From the NCBI RefSeq assembly GCF_020510705.1, contig NZ_CP075184.1, forward strand, positions 4,798,501 through 4,862,500: DNA of 64,000 bases, written 5' to 3'. Shown piece by piece: positions 1,014 to 55,503 of this stretch. This DNA is from Acidovorax radicis. GTDB lineage: Bacteria; Pseudomonadota; Gammaproteobacteria; Burkholderiales; Burkholderiaceae_C. The notes beneath the pieces are model-generated. The model ran no database searches. It saw only the letters and a program-made list of their open reading frames with translations, and was not told the origin of the DNA. The position numbers were made by a program, and so were the translations under genes. Each line of letters begins with the position of its first letter. The stretch's first letter is position 1.

Positions 1014-2545
1014 TGGGAGCATATCTGGTCGCGTATTCTGCGCCAGCCATGGCCCAAACCAACCTCCCCACCCTCGGCGACGGCGGCGATCTCACGACCA
1101 GCGCAGAGCGCCGCCTGGGCGACCGCATCATTCGCGAGCTGTACCGCGACCCCGACTACATCGACGATCCGGTGATTGGCGACTATGTGCAGGGCATCTG
1201 GCAGCCGTTGCTGGCGGCATCCAGGGCGCGGGGGGAGCTTTCGCCCGAGCTGGACGAGCGGTTTGCCTGGGAGATCCTTCTGGGGCGCGACCGCACGGTC
1301 AACGCCTTTGCGTTGCCGGGCGGTTACCTGGGCTTGCATCTGGGCCTGATCGGCGTGGTGGCTACCCGTGATGAGCTGGCTTCCGTGCTGGCCCATGAGC
1401 TCAGCCACGTCACCCAGCGGCACATTTCGCGGCTCATCAGCCAGCAAGGCAAACAGACGCCACTTTTGCTGGGTGCCATGGTGCTCGCAGCGCTAGCGGC
1501 CAGCAAAAACCCCGGCGCCACACAGGCACTGATGGTGGGCGGACAGGCGCTTGCGATGCAAAACCAGCTCAACTTCTCGCGCGACATGGAGCGTGAGGCG
1601 GACCGCATCGGCTATGGGTTGATGGCGCCAGCGGGTTTTTCCTCCCTCGGGTTTGTCACCATGTTCGACAAACTGCAGCAGGCCAACCGGCTCAACGACA
1701 ACGGCTCGTGGCCTTACCTGCGCAGCCACCCCTCGACCACCGAACGGATGGCAGACATGCAGTCGCGGGTGCCGCCTGGCACAGCGGCTTCGTTGGCGGC
1801 AAAGCCCCCAACGCTGGAGCACGCCATGATTGCCGCACGTGCCCGCGTGCTCTCAAACCCCGGTGTAGACACGCTGCGCCAGTGGATCGCCGAACCGCAA
1901 GGCACAGGGTTTTCCACCCTGCCCGCCCCGCGCCGCGTCGCGGTGCTCTACGCCGCTGCACTGGCCAACAGCCAGTTGCGCGACCCGGCAGCTGCACGGG
2001 TCATGGCCAAAAAAGTGGACGATCTAGCCCGACAAGACCCTCGCGCAGAGCGGCTTTTGCGCCTGTTGAACGCCGAGATAGAACTGGCAGCAGGTGACGC
2101 GACGCAGGCTTTGGCTGCGCTGCCCCCATCGGTCTCTACACCAGATTCAGGGGGGGCCGCAGCCCAGTCTGCCCAGACGGACGGCCGCTACGGTCAAAGG
2201 GCTGAACTGATATTGCGCACACAGGCCCTGCTGAGGGCCGGGCGCGCCGTTGAAGTCACTGCGGCACTTCAGACCTGGGTGACCACCCATCCGAAAGACG
2301 CCACCGCCTGGCAACTGCTGGCGGCGGTATGGCAAGCCCAGGGGCAGTCTTTGCGCGGCATTCGGGCGGAAGCCGAAGCGCAAGCGGCGCGCTATGACTA
2401 TGCCGCTGCGGTGGATCGGTTCAAGGCGGGGCAGGACATGGCTCGCCGTGGGGGTGCGTCGGTGGACCACATCGAGGCGTCTATCATCGACACCCGGTTG
2501 CGCACCATGCAGTCACTTCTTAAAGAACAAGCCGCCGAGCGCTGA
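971..2545 (+). CDS. M48 family periplasmic metalloprotease with TPR region (BepA-like)
   Basis: A 524-residue exported zinc protease. A signal peptide (residues 1-28, cut after SAPAMA) precedes a peptidase M48 domain with the HELSH zinc motif at H142-E143-H146 and the third-ligand helix MEREAD around residue 209. The C-terminal half is alpha-helical and alanine-rich, consistent with the TPR repeats of BepA/YfgC, which degrade misassembled outer-membrane proteins such as LptD. The start has no strong Shine-Dalgarno, and translation may be coupled to the upstream pilin accessory gene. The first ~15 codons are a copy of the dispersed palindromic repeat, so the signal peptide is repeat-derived. 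The gene overlaps the convergent membrane-protein gene by 33 bp. Confidence 0.88.
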   Translation: MALSLIHKALTALILGAYLVAYSAPAMAQTNLPTLGDGGDLTTSAERRLGDRIIRELYRDPDYIDDPVIGDYVQGIWQPLLAASRARGELSPELDERFAWEILLGRDRTVNAFALPGGYLGLHLGLIGVVATRDELASVLAHELSHVTQRHISRLISQQGKQTPLLLGAMVLAALAASKNPGATQALMVGGQALAMQNQLNFSRDMEREADRIGYGLMAPAGFSSLGFVTMFDKLQQANRLNDNGSWPYLRSHPSTTERMADMQSRVPPGTAASLAAKPPTLEHAMIAARARVLSNPGVDTLRQWIAEPQGTGFSTLPAPRRVAVLYAAALANSQLRDPAAARVMAKKVDDLARQDPRAERLLRLLNAEIELAAGDATQALAALPPSVSTPDSGGAAAQSAQTDGRYGQRAELILRTQALLRAGRAVEVTAALQTWVTTHPKDATAWQLLAAVWQAQGQSLRGIRAEAEAQAARYDYAAAVDRFKAGQDMARRGGASVDHIEASIIDTRLRTMQSLLKEQAAER

Positions 2546-2866
2546 TTCGATCAGCAAGCCCAGCGCCGAATAGATCAGGGAGCCCAACAGCGCGGCGCCG
2601 AACCCCGTGACATGAAAGCCGTCCAGCACGCTGGCGGCGGCCCAGAACATCAGCGCGTTGATGACAAACAAGAACAGGCCGACGGTGACAATGGTCACCG
2701 GAAGCGTCAGCACCACCAGCACCGGGCGCAATACCACGTTGAACAGCCCGATGACAAAGGCCGCAATCAGCGCCGAGGTAAAGCTCTTCACCTCCACGCC
2801 GCTGTAGATATAGGCAACAAACAGCAGCGACGCAGCGCTGAGGAGCCATTTGAGAAGAATTTTCAT
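2513..2866 (-). CDS. Phage holin family IV / YvlD-like small membrane protein
   Basis: A 117-residue protein made of four hydrophobic segments (about residues 4-22, 28-50, 52-78 and 84-110) with the LFNVVLRPVLVVLTLPVT motif near residues 41-58. That pattern is typical of the PF04020 family (named after phage holins but widespread as chromosomal membrane proteins of unknown role). It is convergent with and overlaps the M48 protease 3' end by 33 bp. Nothing nearby is phage-like, so a holin function is unlikely. It starts with ATGAAAATTCTTCTC. Confidence 0.8.
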   Translation of the reverse strand: MKILLKWLLSAASLLFVAYIYSGVEVKSFTSALIAAFVIGLFNVVLRPVLVVLTLPVTIVTVGLFLFVINALMFWAAASVLDGFHVTGFGAALLGSLIYSALGLLIESALGGLFFKK

Positions 2867-3009
2867 GCAGCAAGAATAGCACTGGCTCCCGATGCTGCAA
2901 CCCCATCGTGGCGCATCCCGCCGCGTCCAGCGCCCACCGCGAAGGCCCCTGCATCACATCGCCACAGCCTGCGCGGCAGGTCTGCGCGTGGCGCGTTACG
3001 AGCGGCTTG

Positions 3010-3483
3010 TTATTCGAGCGCCAGCACCCAAAGCACCCCACACCCCGCCAGCACACTGCCCAGGGAGCCTGGCAATGGCGACGACCAGCGCCGCTCCGGC
3101 GGTATACCCACCGCCACGATAGTGGGCGGTGCGGGCGCATCGACCTTGGGTCGCCGGGCATCCACCACCGCTGCGGGTGTCTGGCCCTCGGCCTGCAACT
3201 GACTGGTCAGCTCGGCCAAAGGCCCCTTGGCCACCACCGTGGTCACCTGGGCGGCGGACATCTGCAAGGTGGGAACAATCTGGTCAAACAGTTTGTCCGC
3301 CCACTTGGCACGCCAGCTTTCTCGCGTGCTGTGGCTCACCCATTTGCTGATGCGGTGGGTCATGCGCGGAGCGCAGGCCACCAGCACCCAGTGGGTGCGG
3401 GCGCTGGCCTCACGGCCCAAAAGCGGGGCCAGCACCTGCTGCGCGTGGGCCGCGTCGTCCACATAAACGATGACTCTGTCCAT
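3010..3483 (-). CDS. Hypothetical protein with C-terminal membrane anchor
   Basis: The likely start is the ATG at 3483 (MDRVIVYVDDAAHAQQVLAP), giving 157 residues; an upstream in-frame extension lacks a ribosome site. The N-terminal ~110 residues look like a small alpha/beta domain (VIVYVDD, WVLVACAP), and a hydrophobic C-terminus (about 137-157, GSVLAGCGVLWVLALE) could anchor it in the membrane. It lies 63 bp downstream of terC on the same strand and may share its manganese-riboswitch transcript. No family was recognised. Confidence 0.6.
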   Translation of the reverse strand: MDRVIVYVDDAAHAQQVLAPLLGREASARTHWVLVACAPRMTHRISKWVSHSTRESWRAKWADKLFDQIVPTLQMSAAQVTTVVAKGPLAELTSQLQAEGQTPAAVVDARRPKVDAPAPPTIVAVGIPPERRWSSPLPGSLGSVLAGCGVLWVLALE

Positions 3484-3546
3484 ACCAACTCCCGGTGTGA
3501 GCGCATCGCCGCATGGCGATCGCATGTGCAATGCTGTTCGAGCGAA

Positions 3547-4302: not shown

Positions 4303-4467
4303 AAATTCCTCAATATCAAAGGCGCAAAAAGAGGAACCCACCGCCATGTGTCAGCGAAGAGTCCGCCCGTCAGAAAGAGGGCCTGCGGCAGGTTGATCGA
4401 GGCGGCTTGCCCGTGAGAAAAGGGGCATGGCAAGCGAAGGGACGGCCTTGATCAGCCCACACGGGGC

Positions 4468-4627
4468 CCATCAAAGGTCTTGCTCGGTTCTGCACACTGC
4501 ATGTGCCTGAACCCGGAACGCCGGAAGCAAAGCTTCGTATTGACGACATTTCCGATGCCTTGCGCCACCGTCGCAACCAAGGTTTGGTCCGCTGCAGCAC
4601 AAGTCGGGAGCTACTCCCCTTCGAGGC
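4468..4627 (-). ncRNA. yybP-ykoY manganese riboswitch upstream of terC
   Basis: Read on the minus strand, this leader contains the hallmarks of the yybP-ykoY aptamer in order: AAGGGGAGTAGCTCCCGAC (GGGGAGTAGC at 4619-4610), ATGTCGTCAATACGAAGC (about 4549-4532), and CCGAGCAAGACCTTTGATG (AGCAAGACCTTTGA at 4484-4471). The GGGGAGUAGC and AGCAAGACCUUUG strands are the near-invariant halves of the Mn-binding core and closing stem. It lies in the 450-bp gap before terC with no competing gene. Identification is by motif recognition; a covariance-model scan was not run. Mn(II) binding would be expected to turn on terC expression. Confidence 0.85.
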
Positions 4628-4754
4628 ACCGATTGGAACATCGCCAGCGCCCCGGCGCAAGTACAGCCCTGCGGTGGCTAAGATTTAAGGCGATAGCGCC
4701 GCACACCGCCGACTCGGGAGCTTATGATCCAGCCCCCCTCGACAGCCTCCCGCC

Positions 4755-5195
4755 ATGGCCGCCATCCACATCACCGACATCGAAGCAGCCGTCAACCACT
4801 GGCGCGCGCGGGCGCCTTCGCCCGACGGAGTGGCCCTGGCGCCCGAAACACGCGCGCTGGCCAAGGTGTATGCGCTGATGGCGTTCGAGCACACCGACCA
4901 CGTCGAGGACCACCAATTGCCCCCCGACGCCCTGGCCGCATGGTTGGCCTGGTACGACACCACGCCCGACACGCCGTGCATTGCCATCTGCTCCACCAGC
5001 CAGGGCGACGATTTGTGCAAGGGGTGTGGGCGCACGTTTGATGAGGTGCAGCTGTGGCCTGGCATGGGGCCCGCCGACAAACGCGCGGTGTGGCGCCGCA
5101 TCACGATGGAACATTCTGCGTGGCGTTTTAACCGCTATGCAGAGCGTGCTGCAGAAGGCGTCACAGCCCGGCCGGCACCCACCCCAGGCACCTGA
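4755..5195 (+). CDS. DUF3717-DUF1289 fusion, small zinc-binding-type protein
   Basis: A 146-residue protein. Residues 1-70 (ITDIEAAVNHWRARAP, then ALAKVYALMAFEH) match the DUF3717 type found in Burkholderiales. Residues ~73-130 carry the DUF1289 pattern CIAICSTSQGDDLCKGCGRT, whose four cysteines likely bind a metal, followed by a conserved WRRI segment. The function of both domains is unknown. The ATG at 4755 is chosen because DUF3717 begins directly after it. It is divergent from terC and its riboswitch. Confidence 0.75.
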   Translation: MAAIHITDIEAAVNHWRARAPSPDGVALAPETRALAKVYALMAFEHTDHVEDHQLPPDALAAWLAWYDTTPDTPCIAICSTSQGDDLCKGCGRTFDEVQLWPGMGPADKRAVWRRITMEHSAWRFNRYAERAAEGVTARPAPTPGT

Positions 5196-5263
5196 CCGGC
5201 GCCCAAAAACCAGCGCAGTGCGCAGGCCTATGCGCCAGCGCAGCAAACCGTTATGGTGGGCCC

Positions 5264-5569
5264 ATGCTGCGCCTGACCCAAGCCCCCAATATTGCCATTG
5301 CAACGCTGTGGGCAGACCTGTTGTGCGAGGCGGGCATGACGGCGTCCGTGCAGCGCCAATACCTGGGCGCCGCAGCGGGCCACCTGCCGCCCGATCAGTG
5401 CCTGCCGGAGATCTGGCTCGACCATGACGAACACGCCTACCGCGCGCGGACGCTGCTGCAGGAGCTGCAAAACCTGCCACAGCGCCAATGGACCTGCCGC
5501 TGTGGAGAGTTCGTGGAGGGCGGCTTTGAACAATGCTGGCAATGCGGTGCGCTCATGCCACGCACCTGA
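5264..5569 (+). CDS. DUF2007-like protein with C-terminal zinc ribbon
   Basis: A 101-residue protein starting MLRLTQAPNIAIATLWADLL. The N-terminal half (strand-helix with LLCEAGMTASVQRQYL) resembles the DUF2007 'putative signal transducing protein' fold. The C-terminus carries CRCGEFVEGGFEQCWQCG, a CxC...CxxC zinc-ribbon-like knuckle. It follows the DUF3717/DUF1289 gene by 68 bp on the same strand and may be co-transcribed. The family assignment is moderate and the role unknown. Confidence 0.65.
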   Translation: MLRLTQAPNIAIATLWADLLCEAGMTASVQRQYLGAAAGHLPPDQCLPEIWLDHDEHAYRARTLLQELQNLPQRQWTCRCGEFVEGGFEQCWQCGALMPRT

Positions 5570-5598
5570 TGCAGGCGTACGCCGCATCGAATTCACTA

Positions 5599-5649
5599 CT
5601 TATTTGATAGCTTTTAGCGCTTATGCATCAAGCGCTAGAAGCCAATTTC
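5599..5649 (+). repeat. Palindromic repeat copy 2
   Basis: TATTTGATAGCTTTTAGCGC-TTATGCATCA-AGCGCTAGAAGCC, the complete layout of the dispersed repeat (AT-rich tail, ATAGCT, AGCGCTT...AAGCGCT core at 5616-5636, then GAAGCC). It is intergenic, downstream of the DUF2007-like gene. Confidence 0.85.
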
Positions 5650-6469: not shown

Positions 6470-8164
6470 TTACCGAGCTTCTTCTAGCATTACTTCGACG
6501 TTCGCCGTCTTACTTCGGCGCTTACTTATGAAGTAGCGGGCTTGAAAACTACCAAGCCGCGCTGCCATCTGCAGTGCCTCTTCTGCTGCAGGATTTTTCA
6601 ACGCATAAAGAGCTCGAAATTTTTGATACCAGATTTTTTTTCCGTCATTTGGATTAATTCGATCAGCCACATCCAGATCCAACAGTGCGTCCCCAGCCCT
6701 GCCCATCTGAATGAGTGTCGTTGCACGCGCAACATAATAATCAGAATTTAAGGGATTTAATTCAATGGCATTATTAATATCCAACAAAGCGCCATCTACA
6801 TTACCATTGCGGAATCGCTCATTTCCACGATTAAAAAAAATACGGCTAGCTCCAGCTACTTCAGGTTTTTGAAGCTTGGCCCCAGCATCTTCCCAAAGCG
6901 CACTACGCGAAGAGAAGCTCTCCAAACGGTCACGTGCCTGTATAAAAATCAGAGGAAATGTAATTAAGAAGACTCCAAAAATCCAGTGTGCAGGCAATTT
7001 CCAGATCACGGCTGAAGCAACTACGGCATAACCTATTGCCCAAATATAGCTGCGATATAGAACATAAGGTTCCTGAAACCTAATAAGACTGAACTCAACC
7101 ATAAAAGACAAAGAGCAAAAAACAATGCCAAAAGCGATTAATCTATATTTTCCTCCAAAAAAAGCAACCGCAGAGGCTATGATGGGCACCGCAATAAACA
7201 CACCCAATTGACACACCCCCAAAATAGGGCTCCACGGCTGCATAAAATCAACACGCAAATCCACAGACATGCGTTCAGTAGATGGCATCAACCATTGCAT
7301 CCAATAGCTAAAATACAGTTTCGCCTGCATGGAGACCGAAAATAACCACTGCTCATTTCTACTGGAGAATATAGGCAGCCCATGAATTTCATTCTCAATA
7401 TTTTTCAACCCAGGCTCGTAAGGCTGCCCGACAAACCCTAGGCCCACCGCTACCACATGGGAAATGGCTGGAAGGCTTGCACCCATATAAATGGCCAAAA
7501 TCATTAACGCCGGGCGACCGGGCTTATCTACAAGAAGGATAAGAGAAAGCGCTGCGAAAGGTAGTGTTACCGAATGCTCTTTACAGAGAATTGCGAGCGA
7601 TGCTACCAGCGCAGCGCGCAGTGCATATGTATAATTATTTTCATCCAATGCTCTCAAAAGATACCGCAAGCTAAGCACGGCAAATAATGCGGCCATCACG
7701 GTTGTTCTTTGAATAAGATAGCCTGCACCATAAACTGCCGCCGGATGCGCCACAAACAAGATGGCAATCACAGTTGCAGTCAATCTTGCCTTTTGCATGG
7801 ACGGGGCCGGCTTTATGGCTTCGGATACGTTTCGTGTCAGCATTTGAAACAGTAGCAGATAAAGTTGCCATCCAACCATAGCGTGTAGCGCCAAGCCCAC
7901 CAGCCGATGCGCCGCCATACTACCTATTTGGGTTTGGACCCATCCCAGAGTGAAATAAGGTAACGATCTGGTTCCTAATTCCCAAGGAGCGATTGCAGCA
8001 GTCGTCAACCGCGATGTGAAGAAGAGATTCCCGTCATCGAATACAAATGGATTATCCAGGTATGGTCCGTAAAGTGCTACCGCAACGGCCAGGATGAGAA
8101 TCATAACCCCAATGGAGAGGGCCAGTTCCTTGGTCCATAGACGCAACTTGAAGAAGTGCATCAC
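6470..8164 (-). CDS. GT-C-type multi-spanning membrane protein with C-terminal TPR (TMTC-like)
   Basis: A 564-residue protein; a GTG at 8164 has a GGAGG 7 nt upstream, and an ATG follows at 8161. It has about ten hydrophobic segments, an extracytoplasmic loop after the first with NPFVFDDGNLFF (D43-D44), as in TMTC/PMT-like glycosyltransferases, and a C-terminal tail with two to three TPR units (about 430-540, for example RGNERFRNGNVDGALLDINN). This suggests transfer of a sugar from a polyprenyl donor to an exported protein. Base composition is visibly AT-rich next to its GC-rich neighbours yaeQ and purB, suggesting horizontal acquisition. The pilin accessory gene at 194-952 hints at pilin glycosylation, but that link is inference only. 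Confidence 0.65.
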   Translation of the reverse strand: MMHFFKLRLWTKELALSIGVMILILAVAVALYGPYLDNPFVFDDGNLFFTSRLTTAAIAPWELGTRSLPYFTLGWVQTQIGSMAAHRLVGLALHAMVGWQLYLLLFQMLTRNVSEAIKPAPSMQKARLTATVIAILFVAHPAAVYGAGYLIQRTTVMAALFAVLSLRYLLRALDENNYTYALRAALVASLAILCKEHSVTLPFAALSLILLVDKPGRPALMILAIYMGASLPAISHVVAVGLGFVGQPYEPGLKNIENEIHGLPIFSSRNEQWLFSVSMQAKLYFSYWMQWLMPSTERMSVDLRVDFMQPWSPILGVCQLGVFIAVPIIASAVAFFGGKYRLIAFGIVFCSLSFMVEFSLIRFQEPYVLYRSYIWAIGYAVVASAVIWKLPAHWIFGVFLITFPLIFIQARDRLESFSSRSALWEDAGAKLQKPEVAGASRIFFNRGNERFRNGNVDGALLDINNAIELNPLNSDYYVARATTLIQMGRAGDALLDLDVADRINPNDGKKIWYQKFRALYALKNPAAEEALQMAARLGSFQARYFISKRRSKTANVEVMLEEAR

Positions 8165-51500: not shown

Positions 51501-52687
51501 GGAAGCTCTTCACGAATCGGTTCTGGCTATGTCACAGCGATGCCTGAACTAAAACAGCACTCGCTTTGAGTAATGAGGCGTGCGCAGCGCACCCAGCAGG
51601 CGTTTGGCGAGGGCCATTGCCCCTATATCGGAGGCTTTACGCCCCCTGCACGCGCACCTGCCCCATGCAGGCCAGCAACTTGTGCCTTGCCATCCACAGA
51701 TTGCCCAGCGCAAACAGCGTGACGATCTGCGCCGTGTTCTTCATGAGCCCCCGGTAGCGCACCTTCACGTACCCGAACTGCTGCTTGAGCACCCGAAACG
51801 GGTGCTCCACCTTGGCCCGGATGCTGGCCTTGGTGCGTTCAAGTTGGTCGATCAGCGCATCCACAGGCTTGTTTTTGTCCAAAGCCCGGCGCAACCCCGG
51901 GCGCATGGCTACATGCCAGCGCACGTTCTTGTTGGCATCGGGCCGCTTGTCCACTCCTTGGTAGCCCGCATCGCCAAAGGCATCCGTTTCTTGCCCGTGC
52001 AGCAGGCTGTTGGCTTCTATCACGTCGTTCACATTGCCACTGGTGCCGCGCACGCTGTGCACCAGGCCTGAATCCGCATCCACGCCAATGTGAGCCTTCA
52101 TGCCAAAGTACCACTCGTTGCCCTTCTTGCTTTGATGCATCTCGGGGTCTCGTGCCTTGCCTTCATTCTTGGTGGACGTCGGCGCCGCAATCAGCGTGGC
52201 ATCCACCACCGTGCCTGCTTTGAGTTGCAGCCCTTTGGCTTGCAGCAGGGCATTGACCGTAGCGAGGATCTGATCGGCCAGTTTGTGGCGCTCCAGCAGA
52301 TGCCGAAAACGCAGGATGCTCGATTCACTGGGAATGTGTTCGTCCCAGTGAGACAGGCCGGCAAAGTCCCGAAAGGCTGGCACGTCGTGCAGTGCCTCTT
52401 CCATGGCTGGGTCGCTAAGCTTGAACCACTGCTGCATGAAATGGATACGCAGCAGGGTCTGCACCGCAAAGGGCTGCTGGCCCCGGCGTCCGATCTCTGG
52501 GGCGTAGGGCTCAATGAGCGAGACCAACTCGGCCCAGGGCACCACCAACTCCATCGCATCAAGGAACTCGCGCTTGCGTGTGCGCTTGGTGGTATTGCTC
52601 AGGCCCAGGCTGCTTTGCTTCATGGCCTTATTGTCTCGGCTTCAAGCCTTCGTAAGCACATTACGCAGGGATTTGTGCAGAGGGTCC
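51501..52687 (-). mobile_element. IS5-family insertion sequence with CTAG target duplication
   Basis: The 1187-bp element is bounded by imperfect inverted ends (left GGAAGCTCTTCACGAATCGG; right, reverse-complemented, GGACCCTCTGCACAAATCCC) and flanked by a directly repeated CTAG at 51497-51500 and 52688-52691, a target duplication of the YTAR type expected for IS5. It sits in the centre of palindromic repeat copy 6. The single transposase gene reads on the minus strand. Confidence 0.88.
51637..52623 (-). CDS. IS5 family transposase
   Basis: A 328-residue DDE transposase starting MKQSSLGLSNTTKRTRKREF. The N-terminal DUF772-type domain (YAPEIGRRGQQPFAVQTLLR) is followed by the catalytic core: VVDATLIAAPTSTKNEGKAR with the first Asp, VNDVIEANSLLHGQETDAFG then DAGYQGVDKR with the second, and ASIRAKVEHPFRVLKQQFGY with the final Glu. 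Full length and uninterrupted, so probably functional. Confidence 0.93.
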   Translation of the reverse strand: MKQSSLGLSNTTKRTRKREFLDAMELVVPWAELVSLIEPYAPEIGRRGQQPFAVQTLLRIHFMQQWFKLSDPAMEEALHDVPAFRDFAGLSHWDEHIPSESSILRFRHLLERHKLADQILATVNALLQAKGLQLKAGTVVDATLIAAPTSTKNEGKARDPEMHQSKKGNEWYFGMKAHIGVDADSGLVHSVRGTSGNVNDVIEANSLLHGQETDAFGDAGYQGVDKRPDANKNVRWHVAMRPGLRRALDKNKPVDALIDQLERTKASIRAKVEHPFRVLKQQFGYVKVRYRGLMKNTAQIVTLFALGNLWMARHKLLACMGQVRVQGA

Positions 52688-52829: not shown

Positions 52830-53720
52830 ATGCCGAACTACCCGATCATCAGCATTCCGCTTGAAGCGCGGGAAGACACGGAACAACTGGGAAGCAAACC
52901 CAAGTTTTGGGTGCTGCTGGATGGGCAGCGGTGGCTTTTCAAAGAGGCCCGTCCCAACACTGGTGAAGACTGGGCAGAAAAGGCGGCTGCAGAGATTGCA
53001 CATGCACTCCACATCAACGCAGCCAAGGTCGAACTGGCCGAATACAACGGCAAGGTGGGCTGTATCTCCTGCAATTTTGTGGATGTGGACGCAGGCGAGG
53101 CGCTGGTGCACGGCAATGAAATCATGGCCTGGAGCGTCACCGGCTACGACAAGGAAAAAATCTTCCGGCAGGCAGACCACACGCTGGAGAACATCCAGCT
53201 GGCCATTCGTGCACTGGCTGGGTTTGCAGACACCGATGCCGTACTCACCGAGCTTGCTGGCTACATGGTGCTCGATGCGCTCATTGGCAATACCGACCGC
53301 CACCACGAAAACTGGGGCTTGCGCGCGCACAGCCCGGTGGTGCACCAAACCCGCGTGCTCAGTGCGGCCCCCAGCTTTGACCATGCATCATCGCTGGGCA
53401 GAGAGTTGCTGGACGCCAAGCGAGCCGAGCTACTGAAAAACCAGCAAGTGGCGCGCTACATCAGCAAGGGCCGAGGGGGCATCTTTCGCGACCCCGATCA
53501 GCCCCACGGCGAAAACCCCCTGCGGTTGGTGCAAGTAGCAGCACGGGCGTATCCTTCGTACTTCAGTTCCGCCATTGCGCGGGTGGCTGCGTTGGATGTT
53601 CAGATGCTGCACCGCATATTTCAACGCCTGCCGGCTGAACGCGCTTCAGACACCGCCAAGCGGTTCGCAGAAGCCATGGTGCTGGATGCGCGCACCACGT
53701 TGTTAGATTTGTTGAAGTGA
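52830..53720 (+). CDS. HipA-like serine/threonine kinase core protein
   Basis: A 296-residue protein starting MPNYPIISIPLEAREDTEQL. It has the HipA C-domain kinase layout without a HipA N-terminal subdomain: an ATP-site lysine K38 (WLFKEARPN), the catalytic loop LIGNTDRHHENWGL (D156, N161) and the DFG-equivalent PSFDHASSLG (D184). This is the pattern of HipT-type kinases of split HipBST systems. The next gene starts at its stop codon (GTGA) and encodes a HipA_N-like plus HIRAN protein. No HipB-like DNA-binding protein is seen on either side. It lies 98 bp after the repeat interrupted by IS5. Confidence 0.72.
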   Translation: MPNYPIISIPLEAREDTEQLGSKPKFWVLLDGQRWLFKEARPNTGEDWAEKAAAEIAHALHINAAKVELAEYNGKVGCISCNFVDVDAGEALVHGNEIMAWSVTGYDKEKIFRQADHTLENIQLAIRALAGFADTDAVLTELAGYMVLDALIGNTDRHHENWGLRAHSPVVHQTRVLSAAPSFDHASSLGRELLDAKRAELLKNQQVARYISKGRGGIFRDPDQPHGENPLRLVQVAARAYPSYFSSAIARVAALDVQMLHRIFQRLPAERASDTAKRFAEAMVLDARTTLLDLLK

Positions 53721-54481
53721 ATGAGTACCCCGACATGAGCACCCTCTTCGTAGCATGGCAAGCGCCCGGCCCATCGAGAGCCTGGTTCCCCATTGGCCGC
53801 CTGGATGCTTCGGTGGAACACCACGACTACGTGTTTCAGTACACCCGTGGTGCACTGCAGGCGCAAGAGCGTGCAGGCTTCTCCCCCTTGCTGGCATTCC
53901 CAGAGTTTGAGCGGCGCTACGAAGCCAGCGAATTGTTCCCGCTGTTCAAAAACCGGATTCTGGAGCCCAACCGCAAAGACTTTGCCGAGTATCTGGGCTG
54001 GCTGAACCTGGACCCTGCCCATGCAGACCCTATTGAAATCCTCAGCCTCACGGGCGGCGAACGTCAGACAGACAGCCTGGAAGTGTTTCCGCAAATTCGC
54101 AAGATGGCCGATGGCACGGTGACCTTCCGCTTCTTTTTGCATGGACTGCGGCATGTTTTGCCTGCCGCGCAAGCCCGGGCGAACGCCCTGGAAGAAGGCG
54201 ACACGCTGCAAGTCGCTATAGAGGTCAACAACCCCGCCACGGGCTACGCCGTGCAACTGCAAACACGAGACGGGCACCTGCTTGGCTGGGCACCGCGCTA
54301 CTTGGTCAGCGACCTGCGCGCCGCACTGCTGGAGCACGCCACCATCACGGCCACGGTGCGCCGCATCAACCGCATGGGCGCACCTTTTGCTCGCCGGGTC
54401 ATGGTGGAGCTACAAGGCGGCGTGCCAGCCAACTTTGAGCCCATGACCTCCGAGGAATACCGCGTACTGGCGGCAGCCTGA
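53717..54481 (+). CDS. HipA_N-like plus HIRAN-domain protein, partner of the kinase
   Basis: A 254-residue protein with a GTG start overlapping the kinase stop by 4 bp (an ATG at 53735 is possible). Residues ~22-95 (FPIGRLDASVEHHDYVFQYT ... ELFPLFKNRILEPN) resemble the small N-terminal subdomain of HipA or free HipS (GRL, F-Y, pLsl, FFxNlLPe pattern). Residues ~135-235 look like a HIRAN domain (EVNNPATGYAVQLQTRDGHL, LGWAPRYLV), a DNA-end/single-strand-binding fold from chromatin and repair proteins. Together they suggest an antitoxin or DNA-damage sensor attached to the kinase. Both assignments are by sequence pattern. Confidence 0.65.
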   Translation: MNEYPDMSTLFVAWQAPGPSRAWFPIGRLDASVEHHDYVFQYTRGALQAQERAGFSPLLAFPEFERRYEASELFPLFKNRILEPNRKDFAEYLGWLNLDPAHADPIEILSLTGGERQTDSLEVFPQIRKMADGTVTFRFFLHGLRHVLPAAQARANALEEGDTLQVAIEVNNPATGYAVQLQTRDGHLLGWAPRYLVSDLRAALLEHATITATVRRINRMGAPFARRVMVELQGGVPANFEPMTSEEYRVLAAA

Positions 54482-54599: not shown

Positions 54600-55121
54600 T
54601 CACCCCGGCCCCAGGCTGAACCCGCCCGCCTTGCGCAGGGCCGTGTAGCTCTCGGTGTAGCTGCGCTTGTAGTTGGGGCCCAGCCAGATGGGCTCTTGAA
54701 TCAACCCGTCGCACACCCAGCGGCCATTCAACGGCACCAACGCGGCCTGCATGACCAGGCCGCTGCCCATGACGTAGCCCTCGCCCGCGTCGATGGTGCG
54801 CAGCGGCTGCGTGAGGCCCAGCACGCCATAGGCGCGGGTGGCGTCTTCGTCCAGCAGCACCGAATAACCCCGCGTGTCCTTCAGGTGCACCCAGCGGCCA
54901 AACTGGCTTTGGGCAATGGCGTCCAACATCTCGGCGTCGGCCTCGGGGTGTTTTTGGCGGTAGTGGGTCAGCAGCGTGCGGTCGGCCACAAAGCGGTCGC
55001 GGCCCTTGGCCAGCACTTGCATTACGGTCAGGCCCTTGGTTTCTTTGGGCTGCAGCAGGCTGTTTAAAAAATGCATGTAGGCAGCAATAAAGCGCTGCGC
55101 GGTGGGTTCGTCAATCACCAT
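54600..55121 (-). CDS. Conserved hypothetical protein
   Basis: A 173-residue cytoplasmic-type protein starting at 55121 (MVIDEPTAQRFIAAYMHFLN), with AGAGA upstream. The alpha/beta pattern (LTVMQVLAKGRDRFVADRTL, KHPEADAEMLDAIAQSQFGR, WVCDGLIQEPIWLGPNYKRS) is well balanced in composition and clearly coding, but no family was recognised. It stands convergent with the HIRAN gene (119-bp gap) and ends 119 bp after it. No signal peptide or membrane segment. Confidence 0.65.
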   Translation of the reverse strand: MVIDEPTAQRFIAAYMHFLNSLLQPKETKGLTVMQVLAKGRDRFVADRTLLTHYRQKHPEADAEMLDAIAQSQFGRWVHLKDTRGYSVLLDEDATRAYGVLGLTQPLRTIDAGEGYVMGSGLVMQAALVPLNGRWVCDGLIQEPIWLGPNYKRSYTESYTALRKAGGFSLGPG

Positions 55122-55186
55122 GGCTATCTCTTCGGGGCTTATCTGTTCAGGGCCTTTGGGACCGGGCGTCTTTGAACTTCCACCCA

Positions 55187-55211
55187 CCGTTCGGGCTGAC
55201 CTGTCGAAGCC
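55187..55211 (+). repeat. REP-like repeat, copy upstream of the hypothetical gene
   Basis: CCGTTCGGGCTGACCTGTCG-AAGCC, a copy of the second repeat family lacking two bases (GACC for GAGCC). A degenerate inverse partner (CATCGACAAGCGCGAATGG) follows at 55221-55240. Confidence 0.7.
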
Positions 55212-55278
55212 TTGCGCGGCGCATCGACAAGCGCGAATGGCTTCAAGTGGGTTGGTGCCGACTTCATATTTTGCGTGT

Positions 55279-55503
55279 CTACACACCCAGCACATGCTGA
55301 CAGGGCGCAAAAACCTCGCGCACGCACTGGGCCAACCGCCGCACTTGCCAGTCATTTAGGAAGCCACTCACAACCCCCTTCACCAACCCCAGCTTCGCCA
55401 GATACGCATTATTTGAACTGTAGCGTTCCACCCGAAACGGAAGAGAGCTCCGAAAATTGGCCTCAGCGCTTATGGATGGAGCGTAGGTAGCTATGAATTT
55501 CAT
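55279..55503 (-). CDS. Small hypothetical protein whose N-terminus is repeat-derived
   Basis: A 74-residue frame starting at 55503 (MKFIATYAPSISAEANFRSS). The first ~15 codons come from palindromic repeat copy 7; the rest (LPFRVERYSSNNAYLAKLGL, VSGFLNDWQVRRLAQCVREV) has protein-like composition. It may be a real short gene or a fragment of a lost gene given a new start by the repeat. No neighbour supports a function. Confidence 0.3.
   Translation of the reverse strand: MKFIATYAPSISAEANFRSSLPFRVERYSSNNAYLAKLGLVKGVVSGFLNDWQVRRLAQCVREVFAPCQHVLGV

Follow-up and report, generated by a model that had tools for sequence, protein, structure and literature searches.

The 64,000-nucleotide stretch of Acidovorax radicis DNA analysed here (the window) carries, at positions 52830 to 54481 of the forward strand, two adjacent genes that an initial annotation had read as a split HipA-type kinase and a partner with HipS-like and HIRAN domains, lacking HipB. 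Their architecture had been taken as new, and inhibition of the kinase had been suggested to depend on the state of DNA. The locus therefore raises the question whether the pair is a conserved unit, whether it is novel, and how the partner would act on the kinase. The pair is an intact, conserved hipIN module, of the kind (HipI kinase plus HipN) predicted by Gerdes, Baerentsen and Brodersen in 2021 (PMC8262856). Novelty was consequently rejected for the architecture as well as for the DNA-end hypothesis, both being already in that paper, and the pair also corresponds to PADLOC PDC-M03. What is new here is the evidence for the defence context of hipIN and for the exchange of the effector of HipN.

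The first gene (52830..53720, forward strand) encodes a hipI-like core kinase of 296 aa. In a Pfam profile search it matches HipA_C (PF07804) with 41.5 bits, the cut-off being 30.5, and it matches PDC-M03A of PADLOC-DB 2.0.0 with an E-value of 5.7e-83. The AlphaFold2 model of the protein (pLDDT 93.3) finds CtkA, HipT and HipA as fold matches; the N-terminal subdomain of HipA is absent, N-subdomain-1 not being fused to the kinase, unlike in hipBA. Residues K38, D156, N161 and D184 are invariant in 22 out of 22 aligned kinases and, in a second alignment, in 55 out of 55; both the catalytic motif D156-R-H-H-E-N161 (53295..53312) and the metal-binding motif D184-H-A-S (53379..53390) are invariant throughout the 22. 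Within the region of the Gly-rich loop (E18-K25, 52881..52904), residues E18, Q19, G21, K23 and K25 are kept in all 22 sequences, and residue 22 is Ser in 20 and Thr in 2 of them; by analogy with HipA and HipT, S22 is a candidate autophosphorylation site. The profile match, the invariant motifs and the fold matches bear out the assignment as a split kinase core, and dN/dS values of 0.065/0.088 for the pair indicate strong purifying selection. Elsewhere in the same genome, four further HipA_C genes were found, with one HipN only; a HipA_C protein at C1:2972108-2972707 (L004) has an N-terminal stretch that looks HTH-like by eye, as in HipH/YjjJ.

The second gene had been described as starting at the stop codon of the kinase. 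A GTG at 53717 does overlap this stop, defining a hipN-like frame at 53717..54481 (forward strand), but homology puts the start at ATG 53735, 14 bases past the stop. HipN was taken as 248 aa because this ATG coincides with the first residue of the 15 database proteins in alignment A1. Counting from it, a HipS-like domain spans residues 1-121 (53735..54097) and a HIRAN domain residues 124-242 (54104..54460), both on the forward strand. The presence of the two folds was confirmed by a confident AlphaFold2 model, with structural matches to HipS and to the HIRAN domain of HLTF, and by the match to PDC-M03B of PADLOC-DB 2.0.0 (E 1.6e-82). Pfam scores of the HipN domains alone stayed under the cut-off; PDB sequence searches with HipN returned nothing useful, and the NCBIfam search gave no informative match. 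A chance domain assignment from the weak Pfam scores is ruled out by the fold matches.

Inhibition of HipT in HipBST is brought about by Trp65 of HipS, which is inserted close to the Gly-rich loop; this plug is present in many, not all, HipS proteins (PMC10627512). Its counterpart in HipN, placed at residue 79 by the shared F-x-N motif and thus in a putative register, is Trp in none of 72 sequences, being mostly G, N, K, S, R, A or Q, and a HipS-style plug was rejected on this ground. R74 and R80 are invariant in all 72. Since Trp65 has no HipN equivalent, inhibition, if any, would differ in detail; the modelled fold of HipN supports docking on the kinase, not a plug of the HipS type. At the putative counterpart of HLTF Phe142, Pro is found in 66 of the 72 HipNs and Phe in none. 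The HLTF Phe is required for duplex binding (PMC8262856), and its replacement by Pro would be in line with the single-stranded DNA suggestion made in the same paper.

The hipIN proposal in PMC8262856 predicts that HipI is toxic and HipN neutralising, and that HIRAN recognises the DNA ends of invading phages, leading to activation of the kinase; the small kinases reported there measure 279-321 aa, and HipI is assigned to a subclade of clade XI within a set of 1,239 kinases. The likeness of the window pair to hipIN covers both the core kinase without N-subdomain-1 and the HipS-like/HIRAN partner, and no architectural difference was found. PDC-M03, matched by both window proteins, is a phage-defence candidate model and thus a candidate label only. 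Among open-licence PMC papers, neither PDC-M03 as a literal term nor an experimental test of hipIN was found; a 2025 paper (PMC11706625) describes HIRAN-HipA gene pairs adjoining diDNase genes. A split HipA, made of a kinase core and a separate HipS-fold protein, is common to the pair and to hipBST, whereas gene order differs and the window pair has no HipB, has a HIRAN domain and lacks the Trp65 equivalent. In HipL (PMC8262856), kinase, HipS and HIRAN follow in identical order on one chain, while the window has two ORFs in different frames. CtkA (3akj/3akk/3akl) is a fold match with 19-20% identity to the window kinase, and hipBA has N-subdomain-1 fused to the kinase as well as an HTH partner, neither feature being present at the window. 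One relative (P0241) joins kinase and HipN in a single ORF of 552 aa, with 43% identity over 99% of the joined query; its kinase-HipN junction looks frameshifted.

The reported absence of HipB beside the pair was substantiated: by eye, the ORF list holds no HTH ORF between 52623 and 52830 or directly past 54481, and the flanking gene at 54600-55355 (reverse strand) has no HTH profile match. Among hipIN neighbours, HTH_3 was seen in 2 of 67 downstream genes and is absent from the best 25 of 88 upstream families (65 neighbours). A HipBST system that has lost HipB is disfavoured by the HipN-type partner and by a linkage conserved without an HTH gene. Some phage copies do have HTH genes of the phage-repressor type nearby, as upstream of the kinases of L119 and L225; these genes are probably phage regulators.

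The linkage of the two genes was evaluated by neighbourhood surveys anchored on either of them. In the first 86 loci (80 genome contigs, one viral contig, two Vibrio phages, one Clostridioides phage and two plasmids), a kinase match is located directly upstream of HipN in 76. The 179 HipN records, from which L009, L010 and L175 were excluded as repeats, represent 155 different sequences of HipN DNA, with six loci, from genomes or viruses, entered twice. The upstream kinase match is intact for 120 of these, split or partial for 16 (split, partial or weak-edge profile matches, which may include sequencing errors), at the contig edge for 1 and absent for 15, with too little upstream sequence for the remaining 3; being anchored on HipN, such counts are biased toward intact HipN. 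Within IMG/VR contigs the kinase lies beside HipN in 49 out of 49 loci (25 distinct HipN proteins). A kinase-anchored scan of the same resource found HipN downstream at 63 out of 63 loci, 58 of them new and 5 contained in the 49, many being on the same contigs as the 49; the adjacency rule holds for 57 of the 58, and in L295 the kinase match is shortened and HipN follows at a distance of 332 bp.

In 300 genomes of the window's order, full-length HipN occurs in 5, the window's included, and the kinase in the same 5, although in one of them (G069) it is matched from position 25 on and contains one stop; the other 20 matches of the HipN search cover the HIRAN part only. In the phylum of locus L092 (titled Latescibacteria), HipN is present in 16 of 64 genomes, and 14 of these 16, but no other genome, have a strong kinase match; the two HipN genomes left are those with the Fic (L092) and DUF2326 partners described below. 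Four weak kinase matches (60-72 bits; G727, G728, G730 and G740) were discounted as probable members of other HipA families; G740, which has no HipN and a kinase-profile match of 60.8 bits, counts against linkage. At strong-match level, the two kinase-anchored surveys contain no kinase without HipN. Linkage of the gene pair is thus upheld by the survey, although HipN alone does occur: members of the same HipN family also follow non-kinase genes or stand alone, so that HipN is not always a kinase partner.

Exchange of the HipN kinase for another enzyme is unreported in the abstract, Results and Discussion of PMC8262856, and is the surprising part of the present findings. In 4 of the 15 kinase-less loci, a non-kinase gene overlaps the start of HipN by 4 bp, on start codons chosen by a mechanical ORF rule, and each non-kinase pairing was seen at one locus. 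The partner is a GmrSD_N plus SLFN_AlbA_2 protein in L057 (PADLOC HEC-05, 120 bits), a Fic protein in L092 (PF02661, 67.4 bits; PADLOC SoFic, 131.7 bits), a PIN protein in L065 (28.7 bits) and, in L153, a DUF2326 protein (133 bits) with a sub-threshold ABC-3C CTD10 match. In L065 the PIN gene is preceded by an overlapping ORF of no known family, encoding a 257-aa protein without Pfam or PADLOC match (whole region 2259-3514); a three-gene system next to an hsdS gene is possible there. A further PIN gene lies about 200 bp upstream of HipN in L099. L092 and L099 come from chromosome records, L057 and L065 are MAG contigs, and misassembly may have created the junctions of L057, L065 and L153.

Solo HipNs were found in L081, L110, L114, L176, L177 and L167. 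Those of L110 and L114 are full-length and belong to Acidobacteria MAGs, those of L176 and L177, also full-length, to genomes of the phylum of G312; the HipN of L167 is diverged and lies just downstream of a gene which is ubiE-like by eye, without an effector. An IS is found upstream of HipN in L120 and L126, both plasmid loci: in the former a transposase-like ORF (by eye, 7008-7865) directly precedes HipN and the kinase match is absent upstream, in the latter an annotated IS110 transposase (4415-5614) separates the kinase match from HipN. L061 and L174 are broken HipN loci.

Comparison with kinase-linked sisters locates the boundary of the exchange. In the best case, L065 and the Azonexus locus L060 have in common a methyltransferase-like region (by eye) and hsdS; past it the two differ, with the kinase in L060 and the PIN pair in L065, until identity of 94% resumes at the HipN start codon, over 792 bp. 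The two HipN proteins are 99% identical. L153 and L148 are alike only from about the fifth codon to the end of HipN (88.8%), and the homology of L092 with L115 begins about 20 bp before HipN. A tree of 130 rows requires 10 changes between kinase and any non-kinase state. Under a single label for every partner, four changes are required for the four overlapping cases and five once L099 is added, and therefore these cases do not derive by spread from one exchange. This is a quick tree in which branch support is limited to SH-aLRT and some branches are long. After thinning, 11 of its rows are viral loci; L156, L161, L061, L174, L126 and L125 were omitted, as were duplicate rows and those containing stops or shorter than 191 aa.

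It may tentatively be proposed that HipN is a portable DNA-end sensor, fitted by evolution to unrelated toxic effectors, of which the HipI kinase would be the usual one and the SoFic-type Fic, the PIN protein, the GmrSD-Schlafen fusion and the DUF2326 protein of the ABC-3C kind substitutes whose genes overlap that of HipN; often located beside type I restriction genes, it could read the ends made by restriction. Panacea is a promiscuous antitoxin domain, and HipN would be its DNA-sensing counterpart.

The genomic surroundings of the pair were analyzed as well. A mobile element had been noted beside it, and the transposase is real: a DDE_Tnp_1 plus DUF772 gene (51637..52623, reverse strand; PF01609 103.6 bits, PF05598 64.7 bits) lies outside the module, so that the immediate upstream neighbour is an IS and no defence gene. 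Rhodoferax bucti has the downstream chromosomal flank in common with the window (80.7% over 3.9 kb), but the IS region is unmatched there, and the gene upstream of its hipIN encodes the HsdR subunit of a type I restriction system. Around the 80 genome loci, Methylase_S (type I specificity) was found in 8 of 65 upstream and 3 of 67 downstream nearest ORFs, and HSDR_N in 6 of 67 downstream ones, near-identical loci such as L060 and L062 being entered separately; 132 of 143 neighbours were scanned, the 11 left out being from loci without a usable kinase. In control ORFs, taken at a distance of over 4.5 kb from those of the loci that have a long enough flank, either family reached at most 1 per 100, among 25 of 111 families that include all two-member ones. 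A type I restriction neighbour is therefore frequent, yet far from universal.

Carriage on phages and plasmids is documented by several loci. One near-identical allele, of an IMG/VR pair, is present in 21 of 5,426 E. coli genomes, its HipN being 36% identical to that of the window. The two E. coli copies inspected (GmM062 and CFSAN061772) are each part of a P2-like prophage, where the pair is flanked by replication endonuclease/DinI-like genes on one side and by the portal gene on the other. This position is the gpA-gpQ hotspot, occupied in P2 by old and tin, where defence systems were found by Rousset et al. 2022 (PMC9122126); the words HipA and HIRAN are absent from the main text of that paper. 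In the GmM062 prophage (L306, 5506-10652), SIR2, HerA and hipIN stand side by side at the hotspot. By PHROGs, a P2-type portal gene is located at most 600 bp downstream of the pair in 33 of the 49 IMG/VR loci, with none there in 15 and no room in 1. Two of four Vibrio cyclitrophicus phage records were inspected (L117, 10953-12646, and L118, 11590-13304); both are Vinavirales with a PM2-like capsid gene, and hipIN is placed between structural genes and integrase. The pair adjoins the integrase in Clostridioides phage phiCDKH02, lies inside a type I restriction operon on a Rhodococcus plasmid, and stands beside DUF499/DUF1156 genes on a Nostoc plasmid; in the other plasmids inspected, no restriction or DUF499/DUF1156 neighbour is annotated beside it.

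The reading which we favour, at a probability of about 60%, is that of a hipIN module whose kinase is restrained by HipN and released by contact of HIRAN with DNA, aborting phage production. For hipIN we infer kinase activity, toxicity, neutralisation, DNA binding, a trigger, a target and an anti-phage effect, arranged as follows. HipN would restrain the HipI kinase, while its HIRAN domain would recognise free DNA ends or single-stranded DNA produced by damage, restriction or the replication of phages. Once bound to DNA, HipN would be loosened or re-oriented, and the active kinase would phosphorylate an essential target, so that growth stops and phage production is aborted; the target of HipA and HipT is an aminoacyl-tRNA synthetase. 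Siting beside type I restriction genes would let the module act when restriction has cut or failed.

HipN could instead be a general DNA-end sensor or adaptor, recruiting or licensing any effector encoded upstream, with HipI one of several and the HipS-like domain serving for docking and not as a kinase-specific plug. The four full-length HipNs overlapping a non-kinase gene, three of them 50-54% identical to the window HipN, speak for this, together with their four separate places in the tree (five with L099), the start of homology at or near the HipN start and the missing Trp plug (0/72). No structural precedent is known to us for Fic, PIN or GmrSD proteins being acted on by a HipS-like fold, and a kinase match adjoins HipN in 137 of the 155 distinct loci; with single sightings, two of them on MAG contigs, and overlaps that hinge on mechanically chosen start codons, this account appears rather unlikely. 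A SoFic from elsewhere is followed by the antitoxin gene AS1 (PMC12249575), so that the pairing of SoFic with a downstream gene has a parallel.

The same linkage data are relevant to a plain addiction module, in which HipN is the antitoxin of HipI, the HIRAN domain is used for autoregulation or for tethering to DNA and not for sensing, and the pair spreads by post-segregational stabilisation of prophages and islands. HipN at every kinase of the viral scan, with HipN lacking the kinase in 15 of 155 loci, is what would be seen for a toxin and its antitoxin, and carriage on prophages and plasmids fits as well; yet anchoring on HipN skews the counts toward intact HipN, the HIRAN domains that have been characterised recognise DNA ends and not operators (PMC8262856), and the P2 defence hotspot and the type I restriction neighbours suggest more than addiction, leaving this explanation doubtful. 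A host role of the pair as a regulatory or DNA-repair kinase, and not as a toxin, would agree with the repair association of HIRAN, with the strong purifying selection and with the downstream synteny in Rhodoferax bucti. Such a function is very improbable in view of the patchy distribution in the order (5 of 300 genomes), of phage and plasmid carriage, and of 16 distinct loci where HipN is intact but the kinase next to it is split or partial, in some maybe through sequencing errors.

The hipIN module, in the favoured reading of a HipN-restrained kinase, bears on what triggers HipA-type kinases: if HipN couples DNA ends to the release of the kinase, growth arrest would be linked directly to phage DNA or to the products of restriction. 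Its presence in P2-like prophages of E. coli brings the 2021 hypothesis within reach of tests in laboratory strains, and the natural exchanges of the effector allow asking what HipN does independently of the kinase.
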